Assembly (NCBI GenBank): GCA_013151555.1
Contig: JAADIA010000006.1
Location: forward strand, 1-8,545
Source of the DNA: Nitrospirota bacterium
GTDB taxonomy: Bacteria; NPL-UPA2; JAADIA01
Direction of reading: 5' to 3'
DNA: 8,545 bases
In this document: piece after piece, positions 1,419-8,545 of the stretch
Layout of the letters: each line of letters opens with the position of its first letter
Numbering within the stretch: position 1 is the stretch's first letter
Made by a program: the position numbers and the translations under genes
The notes under the pieces: generated by a model
Database searches by the model: none
The model's input: only the letters and a program-made list of their open reading frames with translations
Told to the model about the DNA's origin: nothing

Positions 1419-2552
1419 GTGGCTGAAGAAGATATAAAGAGTTTCCACGATCTTATCACTGAAGTTCATGAAAAAGGACTCTGTGGAAAATGCGGGGGCT
1501 GTGTTTCTTTTTGTTCGGCAGGGGATCTGAATGCTCTGGAGATAGGGGATGATGATGCTCCCCGGTTTGTCGATGAGGAAAGGTGTCTGAAATGTGGTAT
1601 CTGTTACCTCATCTGTCCCCAGATGAAGGCTCTGAATCCTGAGTTGAAAGAAGCCTTTGGCTGGAAGCCTCCGATTGGTTCTTATCGTTCCCTTCACTCG
1701 GCCCGGACCACGGACGAGAGGATAAAGAAAGTATGCACTGATGGGGGGGTAGTAACCTCGCTTCTCGCGTATGCCTTGAAGAAAGGGATTATTCAGGGAG
1801 CTATCGTTTCCCGGAAGATTGGCCCCTTTGCCCGCCAGCCGGTGATTGTTACCGACCCCGATGAGTTGATAGAAGCTGCCGGCTCTCATTTCGAAGAATC
1901 TTCTCACTTGGAGGAGATAGGACGCCAGTATGCTACTTATTCACCGGCCATCCGGGAAGTGAGAAATTTAGGGAAGAGTGATCTGCAAAGGATTGCTTTA
2001 GTGGGTACTCCCTGTCAGGTCTATACGGTGAGAAAGATGCAGTATCTCAAGGTGCTCCCGGCGGACACCATTGTCTTGACTATCGGACTTTTTTGTATGG
2101 AAAACTTCTCTTTTGATGACCGGGCCCGAAAGAGATTGGAAAAATCGCTGAAGATAAGATTGGATAAGGTAGAAAAGCTAAATATCAAGGATGATGTCAT
2201 CGCTACTCTGGTCGGAGGCGAGGTTGTCCATCTGCCCTTCGAGGCGGTGGACGAAATTGCCCGCCCGGCCTGTATGGGCTGTCCGGATTTCGCCAATGAT
2301 TATGCGGATATCTCGGTGGGAGGGTTAGGGTCGCCGGATGGTTATACTACTACCTTGGTCAGAACTGTCTTCGGTGAAAAATTATACAACGGCGCTAAAA
2401 GTCAGAACGATATTGAAGAGTTGTCTTTCCGGAGCCATGAAGAAATGAGAATTCATAAGACCAAAGCCATGGCCAGGATTATTGCTTTTGCCAAGAGGAA
2501 GAAGGAAAGAGCCAAAAAATATGTAAGCTTGGACTTCAGAAGCGATAAATAA
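1419..2552 (+). CDS. Coenzyme F420 hydrogenase/dehydrogenase beta subunit (FrhB) family protein
   Basis: This is a cytoplasmic iron-sulfur flavoprotein of the FrhB/FpoF/FdhB superfamily, which passes electrons between iron-sulfur clusters and a soluble carrier (F420 or another acceptor) through FAD. The 377-residue product has an N-terminal two-cluster ferredoxin part with C22-x2-C25-x2-C28-x3-C32 and C56-x2-C59-x2-C62-x3-C66-P. The FrhB N-domain follows (GSYRSLHSAR at 87-96, CTDGGVVTSLL at 106-116). The C-domain has GTPCQ at 196-200, C226, C285-x2-C288 and a D-ISVGGLGSPDGYTT stretch at 297-311. C199, C226, C285 and C288 are placed to hold a third cluster. The start is GTG at 1419, with AGGAGGA at 1409-1415. 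The gene stands alone, without the large or small hydrogenase subunits or HdrA. The family is certain; the electron partner and the use of F420 are not shown by the sequence. Confidence 0.9.
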   Translation: MAEEDIKSFHDLITEVHEKGLCGKCGGCVSFCSAGDLNALEIGDDDAPRFVDEERCLKCGICYLICPQMKALNPELKEAFGWKPPIGSYRSLHSARTTDERIKKVCTDGGVVTSLLAYALKKGIIQGAIVSRKIGPFARQPVIVTDPDELIEAAGSHFEESSHLEEIGRQYATYSPAIREVRNLGKSDLQRIALVGTPCQVYTVRKMQYLKVLPADTIVLTIGLFCMENFSFDDRARKRLEKSLKIRLDKVEKLNIKDDVIATLVGGEVVHLPFEAVDEIARPACMGCPDFANDYADISVGGLGSPDGYTTTLVRTVFGEKLYNGAKSQNDIEELSFRSHEEMRIHKTKAMARIIAFAKRKKERAKKYVSLDFRSDK

Positions 2553-2942: not shown

Positions 2943-4457
2943 ATGAAAAGTCAAGAGCTAATATTGGTTGTAGGTCTTATCCTGACTTCAGGGATAGTGT
3001 TGGGGGGCTGCAAAACCGAGGAAGTTGTGGCGCCTACCCTGCCATCTCCAACATCCACTACTACGCCGGTTCCTAAAGCACCCATGTCCGCAGCGGTTTC
3101 TCAACTGAAATGTCTGTCCTGTCATGCTGATGTCCATGCCAAGTGGAAGGGAAGTCCTCATGCCAAGACCCAGGCCGATCCGGCCGGTGAGCTGGGCGAA
3201 GAACGGGCCGGGCAGACTCCGGAAGAGGTAATCCATGGTGAGGATGCCGAAGACTGTATTGCCTGTCATGCTCCTACCGCGGTATTGGCTAACGGCGGGA
3301 TGAACGAAGTCCAGGCGTTGGAGTACTTCTTTACCACGGAAGATGGGAAGTTTACCAAGGATACGGTTCCGGTCCATAGCTCCGAGTGGCCTAACGTTGC
3401 TTGCATTGTCTGCCATAAGGTGCCCGATAACCACCCGACAACTATACCTACCCGGGCCCTCTTTAATTCTCAGACCGGGAAGTATGCCTCTGTGGACAGC
3501 GTCAGCGAACTCTGCGGGCAGTGTCATGGCAACCTGCGCTTCCCTGACACGGACCATCGGACTTATAATGCCTGGACAACCAGTAAGCATGCCAAGACCC
3601 AGGCCGATCCGGCCGGTGAGCTGGGAGAAGAACGGGCCGGGCAGACTCCGGAAGAGGTAATCCATGGGGAGGATGCGGAGAATTGTATTGCCTGCCATGC
3701 TCCCACAGCGGTATTGGCTAACGGCGGGATGAGCGAAGTCCAGGCGTTGGAGTACTTCTTCACCACGGAAGATGGGAAGTTCACCAAGGATACGGCTCCG
3801 GTCCATAGCTCCGAGTGGCCTAACGTTGCTTGCATTGCCTGTCACGACCAGCATAACCCCGGGGAACCTGCATACTTCAACTCTTCGACCAAGAAACATG
3901 AACCGATGAAGAATACCAGCGAACTCTGTGGGCAGTGTCATGGCAGCCTGCGCTTCCCTGACACAGATCATCTTAGCTATAATATCCGGACCGGCACCGG
4001 CGGCATCGGCGTACCGGATCAGCGGACGATGCCCGGGGCTACCTGTACCGATTGCCACATGTTCGTAAGCAAAGTCGATGACAGCAACTCGGCCACGTTC
4101 CATGGCCATACCTGGGCCATTACGGTGCAGGAGGCAGATGGCAAGAGCACAACCTCATGCACCCGTTGCCATGCCGGCAGCAAGGATGCAGCAAAGGCCA
4201 AGGCCATTATCAGTGCCTACAAGTCGGGTTTCCAGGCGCTTGATGTCACTGCTCAGAAGAACGTTGCTGCGGCCGCGGAAGCCATGAAAGGCATCCAGGA
4301 TAAAGTCCTGCAGGCTAAACTTAAGGAAGCCCGGCACAATCTAACTTATGCAGAATCTGACGAGAGCGGTGGTTTTCATAACCATAAGTACCTTATGGCC
4401 TTGGTGAAGGATGCCAATGACAAAGCACGAGAGATTCTATCTACCTTAGGGAAATAG
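2943..4457 (+). CDS. Nine-heme c-type cytochrome lipoprotein with internal duplication
   Basis: This is an exported electron-transfer protein. The N-terminus is a lipoprotein signal (hydrophobic 6-22, lipobox LGGC with Cys23 to be lipidated), followed by a Thr/Pro linker (about 30-47). Nine CxxCH heme-attachment motifs begin at residues 57, 105, 154, 191, 248, 297, 329, 368 and 406. Residues 73-209 and 216-347 are near-copies carrying hemes 2-4 and 5-7. The C-terminal part (ATCTDCHM at 366-373, distal His residues, CTRCH at 406, then helices ending in GGFHNHKY) resembles the rear half of NrfA-type nitrite reductases. The catalytic CxxCK heme of NrfA is absent, so electron transfer is more likely than nitrite reduction. 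The start ATG has AAGGAG at 2931-2936. It is driven by the sigma-54 promoter. Base and codon use looks GC-richer than in the neighbouring genes. Partner and localisation (inner or outer membrane) are inferred, not shown. Confidence 0.9.
   Translation: MKSQELILVVGLILTSGIVLGGCKTEEVVAPTLPSPTSTTTPVPKAPMSAAVSQLKCLSCHADVHAKWKGSPHAKTQADPAGELGEERAGQTPEEVIHGEDAEDCIACHAPTAVLANGGMNEVQALEYFFTTEDGKFTKDTVPVHSSEWPNVACIVCHKVPDNHPTTIPTRALFNSQTGKYASVDSVSELCGQCHGNLRFPDTDHRTYNAWTTSKHAKTQADPAGELGEERAGQTPEEVIHGEDAENCIACHAPTAVLANGGMSEVQALEYFFTTEDGKFTKDTAPVHSSEWPNVACIACHDQHNPGEPAYFNSSTKKHEPMKNTSELCGQCHGSLRFPDTDHLSYNIRTGTGGIGVPDQRTMPGATCTDCHMFVSKVDDSNSATFHGHTWAITVQEADGKSTTSCTRCHAGSKDAAKAKAIISAYKSGFQALDVTAQKNVAAAAEAMKGIQDKVLQAKLKEARHNLTYAESDESGGFHNHKYLMALVKDANDKAREILSTLGK
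3159..3569 (+). repeat. Internal duplication, copy 1 (hemes 2-4)
   Basis: This stretch encodes residues 73-209 of the cytochrome. Its first 260 bases or so match copy 2 at an offset of 429 bases without gaps. I count about 16 differences, mostly at third codon positions. The middle is diverged and 15 bases longer than in copy 2, and a conserved block around CGQCH and FPDTDH follows. Confidence 0.9.
3588..3983 (+). repeat. Internal duplication, copy 2 (hemes 5-7)
   Basis: This stretch encodes residues 216-347. It begins at the same HAKTQADP segment as copy 1, but the CLSCH heme that precedes copy 1 has no counterpart here. The duplicated unit is therefore a three-heme block rather than the whole front domain. 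Confidence 0.9.
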
Positions 4458-4625: not shown

Positions 4626-6275
4626 ATGAATAATAACCGTCTTAGCAAAGCAGGACACTTCTCAGGCTTGTTTCTCATCCTGCTCTTGCTCTTTATGGCC
4701 AGAGGTTTTCTGGGTACCCACCCTTTATTGAGTGGTTCCAGCTTCCTCTTCTTCTCTATCTTATACCTGATCGCTACCTTGGTTTCCCGGGAAAATTACT
4801 TCCTCTATCCGGTGATGTTCTTCGGGGCGCTTTCTTACTATCTCTTTCTTTATTTCTTTGGGACTTCTCCTGCTGCTTTTCCGGCCTTTTCCCTCCTTCT
4901 GGTCTTTGTTCTTCTCCTGGCGGCCTATCTTCTGGAAAGGGGCGATAAGAAAATATATGCTATCCCTTTAGAGAAGGGGATGGCGGTAACGGTTTTAATA
5001 TTTACGTTCTGGATAGTGAGGGGCGGATATTTTACTTCCTGGAAAACTATCCCGGTAATCACTTTTCTGGGCTATGCTCTCCTTTATTATCTCAGAAATA
5101 AATTTTCCCGCAGAAGGGGAGCTCTTTATATCTCTTTATTTTATTTCTCGGCCTTTTATCTTTTCCTCCTCTACGGAATTAAATATATTGCCCCCGGCTA
5201 CTACGGATTTTTCCTCCTGGCCTTGGCTGCCCTGTGGCTGTTTGCCGGAACTGTTCTTCGCCGCTCAAAGGGAATAGGTCATAGCCTGCCTTTCTATATA
5301 ATTAGTTTCCTGATAGTTTTTCTTTCTTTCTTCTATTCCGGCCGGGAGCCTTCCCTGCTCCTCGCCTCCTTAGTTATCACTTCCCTTATTTACCGGCTGG
5401 CCCTTAACCGGGTAAGAAGCCTGAGTAAGTTGAGGGAGCCGACCTTCTCTGAAAGGGTAGTGGATAAAGTTCTTCTGGCCATTGCTGATTTGCCGGCTTA
5501 TTTCTGCCTGGGCATATTGATCTATTATAAATTTGCTCTCACTCTGACCAATATGGTGATTGTTCTTATCTATTTCTTGCTCTATTTGGTAGTTGCCCGC
5601 GAGAGCAAAATAACCTTCCTCCGGATAAGGAACCATTACCTTTATCTTTCCGGAATCTTTCTCGGCATATTTTATTTCCTGCTTCTTTTCTCCATCCGGC
5701 CTCTTGCCGATCTGCAGTTGCGCTTGATGTTCTCTCTGCCTTTATTGTTTGGTATCCTTATTTTTGCCCGTTCGATGGATAAGCGAGGAGAGGTTATCCT
5801 GTCCGGTTCCGCCCTCGACCTCGGTTATCTGATGGTATCTGTGGTTTTCATCCTCTCTTTCCTGAGCCGGGATTACTCCCCGGCAAAGGCGGCTATCCTA
5901 TCAGGGCTTTTTCTCATCACCTATCTTATTTTCATGAAGACATGCCGGAGAGGTGACTTTATTTTTACTCTGACTATTATTGGAAGCTATGGTTATTATA
6001 ATCTTTTGAGTGGTCTGGGAACGAAGCTGCAGAATTTAGGAGTTTTCTTTCTTCCCCCGGGCTTGGCCTTGATTATAGCCGGGTATTTATTACAACGGCG
6101 GGGAATTCCTTTAGCCAAGGTATTCTATATAGCTTCGCTGCTGGTCGCTTTCATTTCCATCTATCTTTCTCGTCATTTTTCGGAAAGATATATTTTATCC
6201 CTCTCGGTCTGGGCTTTTTCCTATCTCTTAATAGCTCAGGCGATGGTCAGTAAGAGAAGGAGGGCAGAGATTTGA
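4626..6275 (+). CDS. Polytopic membrane protein of about 20 TM segments, family not recognised
   Basis: I do not recognise a known family. The 549-residue product is almost wholly hydrophobic, with about 20 predicted membrane segments (for example 11-29, 39-53, 58-78, 85-103, 141-156, 165-183, 191-209, 307-323, 336-355, 366-381, 397-413, 421-437, 443-461, 473-488, 498-513, 522-540). Short basic loops (SRRR, LRRSK, CRR, QRR) separate them. A four-helix unit recurs about every 100-115 residues, starting near 39, 141, 307 and 421, with a shortened unit near 243. There are no heme motifs, no CxxC and no nucleotide-binding motif. The start ATG directly follows GGAGG, so the upstream GGAG at 4615-4618 (7-base spacing) is the more likely ribosome site. 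Its stop overlaps the next start (TGATG), and that gene's membrane part has the same repeat, so the two products probably assemble together. A quinone-facing or scaffold role is only a guess. Confidence 0.85.
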   Translation: MNNNRLSKAGHFSGLFLILLLLFMARGFLGTHPLLSGSSFLFFSILYLIATLVSRENYFLYPVMFFGALSYYLFLYFFGTSPAAFPAFSLLLVFVLLLAAYLLERGDKKIYAIPLEKGMAVTVLIFTFWIVRGGYFTSWKTIPVITFLGYALLYYLRNKFSRRRGALYISLFYFSAFYLFLLYGIKYIAPGYYGFFLLALAALWLFAGTVLRRSKGIGHSLPFYIISFLIVFLSFFYSGREPSLLLASLVITSLIYRLALNRVRSLSKLREPTFSERVVDKVLLAIADLPAYFCLGILIYYKFALTLTNMVIVLIYFLLYLVVARESKITFLRIRNHYLYLSGIFLGIFYFLLLFSIRPLADLQLRLMFSLPLLFGILIFARSMDKRGEVILSGSALDLGYLMVSVVFILSFLSRDYSPAKAAILSGLFLITYLIFMKTCRRGDFIFTLTIIGSYGYYNLLSGLGTKLQNLGVFFLPPGLALIIAGYLLQRRGIPLAKVFYIASLLVAFISIYLSRHFSERYILSLSVWAFSYLLIAQAMVSKRRRAEI

Positions 6276-8545
6276 TGACCGTTATAGGAAATATATTTGC
6301 TCTCTGGGTCCTCATTCTGCTCATTTATTACAGGGCCGCTACCCTGGCCATTCCGGTCACCCTGATTTTGGGTGTCTGTTATTGTCTCCTTTCCCGTTCT
6401 TCCCGGAAAGCTTTCTATCTCTATCCGGGAAGCCTTCTCCTATCCATCGGCTATTTCCTTGTCCTGACTGGAATTCGGGGCTATAGCTCTTATCTTCTTT
6501 TTTCTATCCCCTTGATTGGCCTCTTATTCGGTCTGGGAATTTATTTCCAGCGTCGGCAAAAGGAGTTTTCTTCTCCCTTAATGGCAATCGGACACTTGAA
6601 TGTAATCTTCCTCACCGGGCTTTTGTTCTTTCATCAGTCAACGGTAAATAATACCTTAGTTGTTTTTTCCACTCTCGTCTATGCCCTTATTTACCTGGTC
6701 CTAACTAAATTCAGACGCTGCTCTGACTATCTCTTCGGGACAGCCTCTTTCCTCTCGGTAGCCTATTATTTTGTGCTGGCCGGGCCAAGTTTTATTACCC
6801 CCGAGAACCATCTCCCGTATTTTACCTTATTCAGCTTGGTCCTGTTTTTACTTGGAGGCCTCGTTCAGAAGAAGAAGGACCTGGCGACTGCCGGTCCCAT
6901 TTACGTGGCGGCTATCATTGTGCCTCTCCTCTCCGGCGGGATTTCTTTATCCCGGGGGGACCTAAACCCAGCCCGGGCCAGCCTTATCACCGGAGCGATT
7001 GTTTATGTAGCTATGTTGATCTTGTTTAAAAAGGAAGTCTTCATTTACCTCTTGACCTTAACCCTGGGTTTGCTCCTCTATAGTTTTCTGGAAGCCTTCC
7101 GGAGCAAATTTACCCAGCAATTGGTTGTTTACTTTCTCTACTTCCTGATATTCCTGGGAATCTTCTTTTTTATGCCCTACTTGAGGAGATTGTGGAAGGA
7201 TAAGCGCCCTCCGATCATTTTAAATATTGTCAACTGGAAAGGGGTCCTCTTCTACTCTATCCCCGTCATGGGATTAGTTATTTTATTCCTGGCCTTTTAT
7301 TTCTTGAAAATCAGCGGGACTCCCGGGTTTTGCGGTACCTGCCATTACATGAAGCCTTATGTTGAAACTTGGGCCGTTTCCACTCATAAAACGGTCAGAT
7401 GTGTGGAGTGCCATTATGCGCCCGGGTTTGATTCCGAGGTGAAGGGTAAGATAGCTGGGCTTATTCAGCTGGAAAAATATCTCTCCAATCTTTACGGCGG
7501 GAAGCCTCGAGCTGAGATAAGTGATAAATCCTGTCTGCGAAAAGCCTGTCATCGGGGAATGGATTTTAACCGGGTGGCAATATATAAAAAGAACATCAAG
7601 TTCAGGCATAATCCCCATATGACCCGCCTGGTGAGAGGGGTGCGACTGAGATGTACCTCCTGCCATAGCCATGTCGTCAAGGGCGAGCATTTCACCGTCT
7701 CCGATACCGTATGTTTTGTTTGTCATTTCAAAGGAAGAGGGAATAATGGAGTGGCTCTGGGAAGTTGCTATCTCTGCCACGGTCCGCCAAAGGGTATAGT
7801 TGTTCACGAGGGTGAGAAATTCAACCATACGGAATTTCTTGCCGGCAGAAAAAAAGTCCGTTGTGTTGACTGCCACATTCTGGTTACCGAAGGAGACGGT
7901 GGCGTTCCTCGGGAAAGATGCCTTTCCTGTCATGAAGAAAGCAAGAAGTATACCGATTATAAGTTTATGCATGAAATCCATGTAACCAAACATAAAGTGG
8001 AATGCTTCGAATGTCATACGGAAATAAGACATGGATTGACCAGGATAATAGAAGAACCGGCTCTCAACTGCAACAAATGTCATGGCAAAAGACATTCTGT
8101 CCCGGAAAAGATGTACCGGGGAACAAGCGGGAAAGGGTTGCCCGATTCTCCTGCCTCTATGTTCCTGGCCAACGTAGTCTGTGAAGCCTGTCATAAATAT
8201 AAAACTAAACTGATTGACGTGGGAGATATTACCTACCAGGTGAAAGAGGCCCGGGGACAAGCCTGTGATGATTGCCATGGGAAAGGTTACGGTCAGATAG
8301 CCAAAGCCTGGCAGGGGGAAACAAAAAATAGCCTTAAAGAGCTTAAACCACTGCTCCAAGAGGTGCGCCAAAAACTTGATTCTTTAAAGGGAAAAATGGA
8401 AGGAACGGAGTTTAGAAAAGTAGAAAAGCTCTTTCAGAGAGCTCAGTCCAACTACGATTTCGTAGTTGCCGATAGGAGCTACGGCGTTCATAACATTAAC
8501 TATACCACGGCACTCTTAGATAAGGTAAAAGAGGACCTGGAAAAG
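6275..8545 (+). CDS. Membrane-anchored dodecaheme cytochrome c: polytopic domain fused to NapC/NirT-like multiheme domain (3' end missing)
   Basis: The frame is open for 757 codons from ATG 6275 to the window edge. AAGGAGGG at 6257-6264 lies 10 bases upstream of the start. Residues 1-345 hold about 13 membrane segments (for example 4-19, 22-39, 47-65, 72-90, 127-145, 151-169, 180-197, 233-251, 254-272, 282-300, 323-344), with a repeat every 105 residues or so. The last helix leads straight into GFCGTCHYM (351-359), a NapC/NirT-like first heme site, then CVECH at 376. Eleven CxxCH motifs begin at 353, 376, 460, 480, 498, 530, 549, 577, 599, 636 and 664, and a CX4CH at 420 makes twelve hemes. 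The NapC family usually has a single anchor helix and takes electrons from quinol. A C-terminal helical segment ending in GVHN..Y..ALL matches the end of the nine-heme lipoprotein, so only a few residues are probably missing. Likely role (inference): quinol oxidation or reduction and transfer to periplasmic partners. Confidence 0.9.
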   Translation, partial: MTVIGNIFALWVLILLIYYRAATLAIPVTLILGVCYCLLSRSSRKAFYLYPGSLLLSIGYFLVLTGIRGYSSYLLFSIPLIGLLFGLGIYFQRRQKEFSSPLMAIGHLNVIFLTGLLFFHQSTVNNTLVVFSTLVYALIYLVLTKFRRCSDYLFGTASFLSVAYYFVLAGPSFITPENHLPYFTLFSLVLFLLGGLVQKKKDLATAGPIYVAAIIVPLLSGGISLSRGDLNPARASLITGAIVYVAMLILFKKEVFIYLLTLTLGLLLYSFLEAFRSKFTQQLVVYFLYFLIFLGIFFFMPYLRRLWKDKRPPIILNIVNWKGVLFYSIPVMGLVILFLAFYFLKISGTPGFCGTCHYMKPYVETWAVSTHKTVRCVECHYAPGFDSEVKGKIAGLIQLEKYLSNLYGGKPRAEISDKSCLRKACHRGMDFNRVAIYKKNIKFRHNPHMTRLVRGVRLRCTSCHSHVVKGEHFTVSDTVCFVCHFKGRGNNGVALGSCYLCHGPPKGIVVHEGEKFNHTEFLAGRKKVRCVDCHILVTEGDGGVPRERCLSCHEESKKYTDYKFMHEIHVTKHKVECFECHTEIRHGLTRIIEEPALNCNKCHGKRHSVPEKMYRGTSGKGLPDSPASMFLANVVCEACHKYKTKLIDVGDITYQVKEARGQACDDCHGKGYGQIAKAWQGETKNSLKELKPLLQEVRQKLDSLKGKMEGTEFRKVEKLFQRAQSNYDFVVADRSYGVHNINYTTALLDKVKEDLEK

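Follow-up and report, generated by a model that had tools for sequence, protein, structure and literature searches.

Two adjacent genes in the window, which is a whole 8,545-bp contig (C20) of a 1.81-Mb MAG, encode a very large membrane domain and a multiheme cytochrome, and together they probably form an inner-membrane, quinone-linked outlet from cytoplasmic electron donors to extracytoplasmic hemes. The first gene (4626..6275, + strand) codes for a 549-aa protein with 20 transmembrane (TM) helices. The second gene (6275..8545, + strand), cut at its 3' end by the contig end, codes for a 757-aa fusion protein that combines a 12-TM repeat domain, a NapC anchor helix, 12 c-heme sites and a C-terminal helical bundle. 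A quinone-linked respiratory or electron-export module, as an earlier note on this DNA had proposed, is the best reading of the pair, and its membrane part matched no described family.

The fusion frame starts at the ATG at 6275 or, less likely, at the in-frame TTG at 6272, and stays open for 757 codons, as far as the contig end; the C-terminus probably lacks a few dozen residues. The AF2 model has pLDDT values of ~68–94 over residues 1–270 and is poor in the heme region (35–60). It contains 12 polytopic helices (from 3–18 to 281–308) ahead of a single anchor helix (321–347) that directly precedes heme 1 (Cys353), i.e. 13 TM helices in total; Kyte-Doolittle analysis alone gives 12. The loops carry 18 Lys and Arg residues inside and five outside, which places the N-terminus inside and the hemes outside. 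The first cysteines of the 12 CX2-4CH motifs are found at positions 353, 376, 420, 460, 480, 498, 530, 549, 577, 599, 636 and 664 (ATG numbering), the motif at position 420 being the CX4CH site CLRKACH (7532..7552, + strand). The earlier description of about 13 TM helices fused to a dodecaheme NapC-like cytochrome with one CX4CH site agrees with these data.

An assembly join, named in the earlier note as a possible refutation of the fusion, or a chance open frame is an extremely improbable origin of this gene. The frame reaches the contig end, and the gene at the other contig end (1–496) appears frameshifted, both of which would fit a join; however, the identical domain order is found in MAGs from at least four lineages, and 5,000 composition shuffles of residues 346–757 contained 0.25 CX2-4CH motifs on average and never more than four, compared with 12 in the protein. 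An assembly chimera was rejected since homologues with the same architecture exist in distant lineages. The fusion architecture recurs in other deep-branching bacteria and is therefore a genuine module.

The partner is homologous to the polytopic domain of the fusion protein (residues 3–308; 6281..7198, + strand; BLASTP E=2e-9). It is colinear with helices 1–20 in the model of a one-gene homologue, in line with the 20 TM helices first ascribed to it. The two genes are linked by a GGAGG ribosome-binding-like site and a TGATG stop/start overlap (6259..6277, + strand), in which the TGA of the partner (6273–6275) and the ATG of the fusion gene overlap by one base. Addition of one T to the TTT before GATG would turn both genes into one continuous frame, and a sequencing indel may therefore lie behind the split.

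The same architecture is present in two copies in a Tectomicrobia MAG, each as two overlapping or adjacent genes. The split form was found there independently, with a 4-nt overlap at locus L087 and a gap of ~10 bp at locus L085. In four MAGs of a candidate phylum and in a Chloroflexi MAG, a single gene encodes a protein of ~1,240–1,360 aa with 33 modelled helices, a colinear fusion of the 20-TM partner with the 13-TM/heme protein. These one-gene homologues provide a Rosetta-stone link between the two genes of the window; the proposal that the 20-TM partner belongs with the heme fusion is supported by their single polypeptide in other genomes and by the recurrence of the pair in Tectomicrobia. 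The profile of the membrane part alone, searched against 385 genomes, gave matches in five, always attached to the heme module, and the full-length membrane domain with the heme module is found in three of 386 genomes. The fusion would require one change on the heme-module tree and may have a single origin, but this tree has long branches and support of 33/6. No relative was found among viral contigs, and the architecture was not found in Pfam, NCBIfam or the freely accessible journal literature.

Relatives with one helix, 12 or 18–19 hemes and the same CX4CH site are present in many phyla. These NapC-like 12-, 18- and 19-heme cytochromes (in Ignavibacteria, Aminicenantes, Bipolaricaulota and others) share the heme module with its CX4CH third heme and differ in having a single anchor helix without the polytopic domain. 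Some of them adjoin a cytochrome-b gene (loci L009, L028 and L029), and no name for them was found in the libraries searched. The NapC-like fusion had been regarded as unusual as a whole; a NapC-like entry with many hemes behind it on the same chain is common among the one-helix relatives, and the polytopic extension alone is what is rare.

Judged by sequence, the heme part of the fusion protein is a long member of the NapC/NrfH-like family, with the CXXCHxM motif, a conserved Lys/Arg, the CX4CH third heme and an NrfA/MccA/OcwA-like C-terminal bundle. The anchor helix and the first two hemes (CGTCHYM...CVECH; 7235..7420, + strand) match PF03264 (NapC/NirT; 26.1 bits versus a cut-off of 24.1, residues 325–399) and, by phmmer, NrfH (2j7a_C). 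The NrfH equivalog TIGR03153 matches with E=6e-10, yet the 39.3 bits are below its curated cut-off of 134.2. M359 of the CXXCHxM first heme is invariant in all 15 sequences, and each of them carries Lys or Arg opposite NrfH residue 82 in the alignment; the Asp next to that residue in NrfH is not conserved among them. Of 15 relatives, 14 retain the CX4CH signature. The heme of NrfH that interacts with menaquinol has the CXXCHXM motif (PMC8840924). The candidate quinol site of the fusion protein consists of the NapC anchor and heme 1, and no other part is expected to meet the quinone. The NapC, NirT, NrfH and CymA proteins (PF03264, TIGR03153) resemble the fusion protein in the anchor helix that leads into paired hemes, the CXXCHxM first heme, a Lys near the second heme and the extracytoplasmic location of the hemes. 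In contrast to the 12 sites observed here, they have four to five hemes on a short chain, and the CX4CH third heme, the 12-helix front domain and the 20-helix partner also set the fusion protein apart from them.

The C-terminal module (residues 599–757; 8069..8542, + strand) includes the last hemes and a long-helix bundle, which are shared with the C-termini of OcwA (6I5B), the undecaheme S-layer cytochrome (6QVM), MccA and NrfA. This module matches OcwA in phmmer (6i5b_A, E=2.6e-11). In VIA comparisons its Z scores are 12.5 (rmsd 2.7) to 4rkm, 11.0 to 6qvm and 9.1 to 6i5b, and range from 9 to 12.5 (rmsd 2.6–3.6) over this group. Unlike these proteins, the fusion protein is membrane-bound. It has no CXXCK catalytic heme site, every Cys after residue 345 being in a CX2CH or CX4CH motif, and by that test it is not an NrfA-kind nitrite reductase.

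For the membrane part, none of seven representatives matched a Pfam or NCBIfam family, and SCO7613_CTERM reached only 17.6 of 45 bits. In the seven compared sequences, the columns conserved at ≥80% are nearly all Leu, Phe, Tyr, Pro, Gly or Ala. The only conserved charged or His columns are H107 (six of seven sequences) and two Arg at loops, and neither a conserved heme-b His pair nor metal ligands were seen. The single-polypeptide route from within the membrane, suggested before, is not supported for this polytopic part. Because it has no visible cofactor ligands, the membrane part is more likely to be a scaffold or a quinone corral than a part of the electron wire. The 32 polytopic helices, arranged as eight blocks of four, far exceed the needs of an anchor, and in our searches the membrane part never came without the heme module. 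Both facts could speak for an energy-coupling translocator of ions or protons that electron flow through the NapC/heme part would drive, making the complex a new kind of redox pump; however, the seven sequences have no conserved ionisable residues inside the helices, there is no Pfam transporter or antiporter match, and we consider such a pump quite unlikely.

Foldseek found no match in PDB at E≤0.001 for either the fusion protein or the one-gene membrane model. The nearest solved membrane proteins by VIA fold are the EccD rings of ESX secretion complexes, with Z scores of ~11–12 and rmsd of 4–6 Å, within the helical-repeat background. With the VIA matches to EccD and designed helical repeats at background level or of very high rmsd, no fold was assigned. 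The EccD match could also hint that the membrane part aids biogenesis, heme handling or protein export outside a respiratory complex. This role is very unlikely given the background level of the match, the one-helix relatives that manage without a membrane part while having the same heme module, and the separate cytochrome c maturation genes (CcmF/CcmC/CcsA-like) of the genome.

Two co-oriented genes precede the pair. The nonaheme cytochrome c lipoprotein (2943..4457, + strand; lipobox LGGC, nine CXXCH motifs), located 168 bp upstream of the partner, is a possible next electron carrier after the fusion protein. The FrhB/FpoF-like iron-sulphur flavoprotein (1419..2552, + strand; PF04432 E=2e-36, PF04422, Fer4), followed by a 390-bp gap, is a possible cytoplasmic donor. 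No Hdr or Flx genes were seen beside the fusion gene within the contig, its downstream side lying beyond the contig end. In two MAGs, HdrC-HdrB-HdrA comes after the one-gene form, with MvhD-like or Flx-like genes behind it (Flx genes in one of them). In the genome studied here, a one-helix paralog precedes HdrC-HdrB-HdrA; the paralog and HdrCB are on contig C72, which continues into C73 with HdrB/HdrA, FlxC/B/A-like genes and menA. One Tectomicrobia copy adjoins GltD-like, Rieske and cytochrome b genes and two multiheme genes.

According to PMC10553843 and the references in it, the Flx-Hdr system connects NADH, ferredoxin and DsrC. As in FlxABCD-HdrABC, HdrCBA and Flx-like genes occur together, here as operon partners of homologous heme proteins; the differences are the link to a membrane multiheme protein and the window's lack of any Hdr gene. 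These operons, and the HdrA/CCG-domain cytochrome c oxidoreductase proposed in HotSeep-1 (PMC10553843), would fit a quinone-independent exit, in which an Hdr/Flx or similar cytoplasmic complex binds to the membrane part and hands electrons directly to the hemes, giving a bifurcation-linked outlet to the cell exterior. We regard this exit as unlikely: the membrane part has no conserved cofactor ligands and hence no path across the bilayer, and the NapC-like entry favours quinol. The quinone synthesis genes of the genome, like the non-conserved Asp, count against a quinone link: menA scores 130 bits (cut-off 102), but MqnA/D were not found and MenD was not above cut-off. For CbcBA of Geobacter and Mco of ANME, a polytopic membrane protein has been proposed to work with a multiheme cytochrome in taking electrons from quinone or methanophenazine (PMC10553843, PMC9012536). 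Their polytopic partner is a heme-b protein, whereas conserved His pairs like those of cytochrome b membrane subunits (CbcB, McoA/VhtC, HdrE) were not seen here and no known family matches.

We lean slightly towards a full explanation in which the 32 polytopic helices and the NapC-type anchor form one complex carrying the twelve-heme extracytoplasmic chain. Cytoplasmic NADH or ferredoxin would donate electrons via Hdr-Flx-type or GltD/FrhB-type flavo-iron-sulphur proteins, depending on the genome, and these electrons would most likely reach the complex through the quinone pool. Quinol could be oxidised at the predicted NapC/NrfH-like site by the anchor helix, formed by the CXXCHxM heme 1 and the nearby Lys, and the electrons would travel down the twelve-heme chain to another cytochrome, for which the upstream nonaheme lipoprotein is the probable candidate in the window. 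We speculate that the 32-helix part most likely forms a curved fence of helical repeats, which would hold the heme module in place and create a space for docking or quinone access. A bolder version, conceivable but doubtful, is a new class of respiratory complex. In it, a cofactor-free 32-helix solenoid would surround the NapC-dodecaheme outlet as a corral filled with quinone or as a docking platform, and would couple a soluble, electron-bifurcating Hdr-Flx machine to extracellular electron transfer, possibly conserving energy.

The gene pair brings to light a family of very large membrane domains that has no name yet and that our searches found only with a multiheme cytochrome; in some genomes this cytochrome is encoded next to genes for Hdr-Flx bifurcation. 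If the proposed mechanism is true, some deep-branching uncultured anaerobes would link flavin-based electron bifurcation with an outward heme chain by means of a complex that differs from the cytochrome b, Rnf and Cbc types.

The fusion gene (positions 6275-8545, forward strand) encodes 757 residues counted from its ATG and is open at the end of the contig. That contig, C20 (8,545 bp), makes up the entire window; the source MAG measures 1.81 Mb and is 94% complete. Its start overlaps the stop of the partner gene as TGATG, with GGAGG upstream. The protein contains 12 heme motifs (CX2-4CH) against 0.25 expected from shuffling. The AlphaFold2 model has 12 polytopic helices and an anchor helix at residues 321-347; its confidence is reasonable over residues 1-270 (pLDDT about 68-94), good in the C-terminal bundle and poor in the heme region. 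The loops follow the positive-inside rule (18 Lys and Arg inside, 5 outside), which places the N-terminus inside and the hemes outside. The counts of the earlier note (13 transmembrane helices, 12 hemes, one CX4CH and a 20-helix partner) are thus correct.

Of 386 genomes searched with a profile covering the polytopic part and the NapC start, only three gave full-length matches: the source MAG, a Candidatus Tectomicrobia MAG (G056; JACPUC) and CSMAG_150 (G272; DAOURK). The Tectomicrobia MAG has two fusion copies, each with a polytopic gene directly upstream. In four of the nine genomes of the CSMAG_150 phylum, and in a Chloroflexi MAG (locus L090, cut at the 5' end), partner and fusion protein form a single polypeptide. 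Helices 1-20 of this one-gene form correspond to the window partner and helices 21-33 to the fusion protein; the two window genes part at the loop that links helices 20 and 21, and nothing is missing. Of the evidence that these two genes act as a single unit, this Rosetta-stone arrangement is the strongest. The homologues in these three groups rule out an assembly join, raised by the earlier note, and the pairing it proposed to check is conserved, as adjacent genes or as one. The one-gene forms of HOT.CON.50 and G387 (L086, L077) end after about heme 11, lack the C-terminal bundle and are flanked by a DASS-type transporter rather than Hdr. In the window, one T added to the TTT within 6268-6277 would bring both genes into a single frame (RRAEI-LMTVIGN) that matches the one-gene homologues in order. 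The gene split may be an indel, or it may be genuine, as a ribosome-binding site is present and Tectomicrobia is also split.

The partner (4626-6275, forward strand, 549 residues) and the polytopic domain are mutually homologous (BLASTP E=2e-9), and the membrane part is thus composed of repeats. It has no family match in Pfam or NCBIfam and no PDB fold reaching E 0.001 in Foldseek; the VIA matches to designed helical repeats and ESX EccD lie inside that tool's stated helical-repeat background or have too high an rmsd to be meaningful. Every copy found by a membrane-only profile in 385 genomes is attached to this heme module. Conserved columns hold hydrophobic or aromatic residues, Pro or Gly, and H107 is the only near-conserved His; no signature of a heme-b protein or an ion channel is therefore visible. 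The membrane domain family is undescribed.

Residues 325-399 of the fusion protein match PF03264 above the gathering score and NrfH weakly. All 15 relatives compared share the CXXCHxM motif and have Lys or Arg at the position aligned to NrfH 82, and 14 of the 15 retain the CX4CH of heme 3. In NrfH the CXXCHXM heme is the one interacting with menaquinol (PMC8840924). The last 160 residues resemble OcwA in sequence (E=2.6e-11) and MccA, 6QVM, OcwA and NrfA in fold. Versions with one helix and 12 or 18-19 hemes are found in Ignavibacteria, Aminicenantes, Bipolaricaulota, Gemmatimonadetes and Kryptonia, among other groups. The heme module thus represents a NapC-like type of wide distribution, and the polytopic extension is its rare addition. 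In the tree the window sequence clusters with the one-gene forms (support 85/88); a single origin of all fusions fits the tree, with weak support. A NapC-like dodecaheme frame of 600 residues in G050 (L005:1447-3249, reverse strand) opens with an apparent response-regulator receiver domain, an odd cytoplasmic fusion. Longer NapC-like multiheme proteins (about 660-680 residues; L009, L028, L029) are encoded immediately after or next to a cytochrome-b-like gene, a separate and possibly widespread quinone:multiheme module.

Downstream of the giant gene, CSMAG_150 and Zod_Metabat.896 both carry HdrC, HdrB and HdrA, to which CSMAG_150 adds a FlxC-, FlxB- and FlxA-like series. In the source MAG a comparable run spans the ends of contigs C72 and C73 (L035:12636-15362 and L163:10130-17416): a one-helix dodecaheme paralog, HdrC and HdrB on C72, then the rest of HdrB, HdrA, the same FlxC/B/A-like series and menA on C73. 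AhbB adjoins the paralog, and a further AhbA/B-like gene and an AhbC-like radical SAM gene lie elsewhere on C72. One of the Tectomicrobia pairs has a GltD-like FAD/FeS gene downstream of it, along with Rieske and cytochrome b genes and two multiheme genes.

Upstream of the window pair, on the same strand, are a nonaheme lipoprotein gene and an FrhB/FpoF-like gene. The lipoprotein (2943-4457) has a near-identical internal duplication, HAKTQADPAGELGEERAGQTPEEVIHGEDAE.CIACHAPTAVLANGGM occurring twice, which looks like a recent tandem duplication. A HypA-like protein of 98 residues (816-1112) has no match to HypA profiles past residue ~69. At the start of the contig (1-496, reverse strand), a gene resembling those of ABC sugar-binding proteins is apparently split into frames of 98 and 91 residues, which suggests a pseudogene or a consensus indel. 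The source genome has c-maturation genes. Its quinone pathway is incomplete: menA is present, MqnA/D are absent and MenD has no match above the cut-off.

Cytochrome b plus multiheme modules, CbcBA and Mco, are already described (PMC10553843, PMC9012536), and an HdrA/heme complex was proposed in HotSeep-1 (PMC10553843). In the literature accessible without subscription, preprints aside, we found no system with this membrane domain. The data show the architecture, the topology signal, the fusion and linkage of the pair, the NapC-like entry and the operon context in relatives; the quinone, the direction, the acceptor and the role of the solenoid are inferred. The module is best read as a quinone-linked outlet of the inner membrane, in which quinone-derived electrons would leave that membrane via the twelve-heme chain and the 32-helix solenoid would act as a scaffold, docking platform or quinone corral. 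The module would be of a known kind, a NapC-entry multiheme respiratory module; what is new is the undescribed membrane domain family attached to it.
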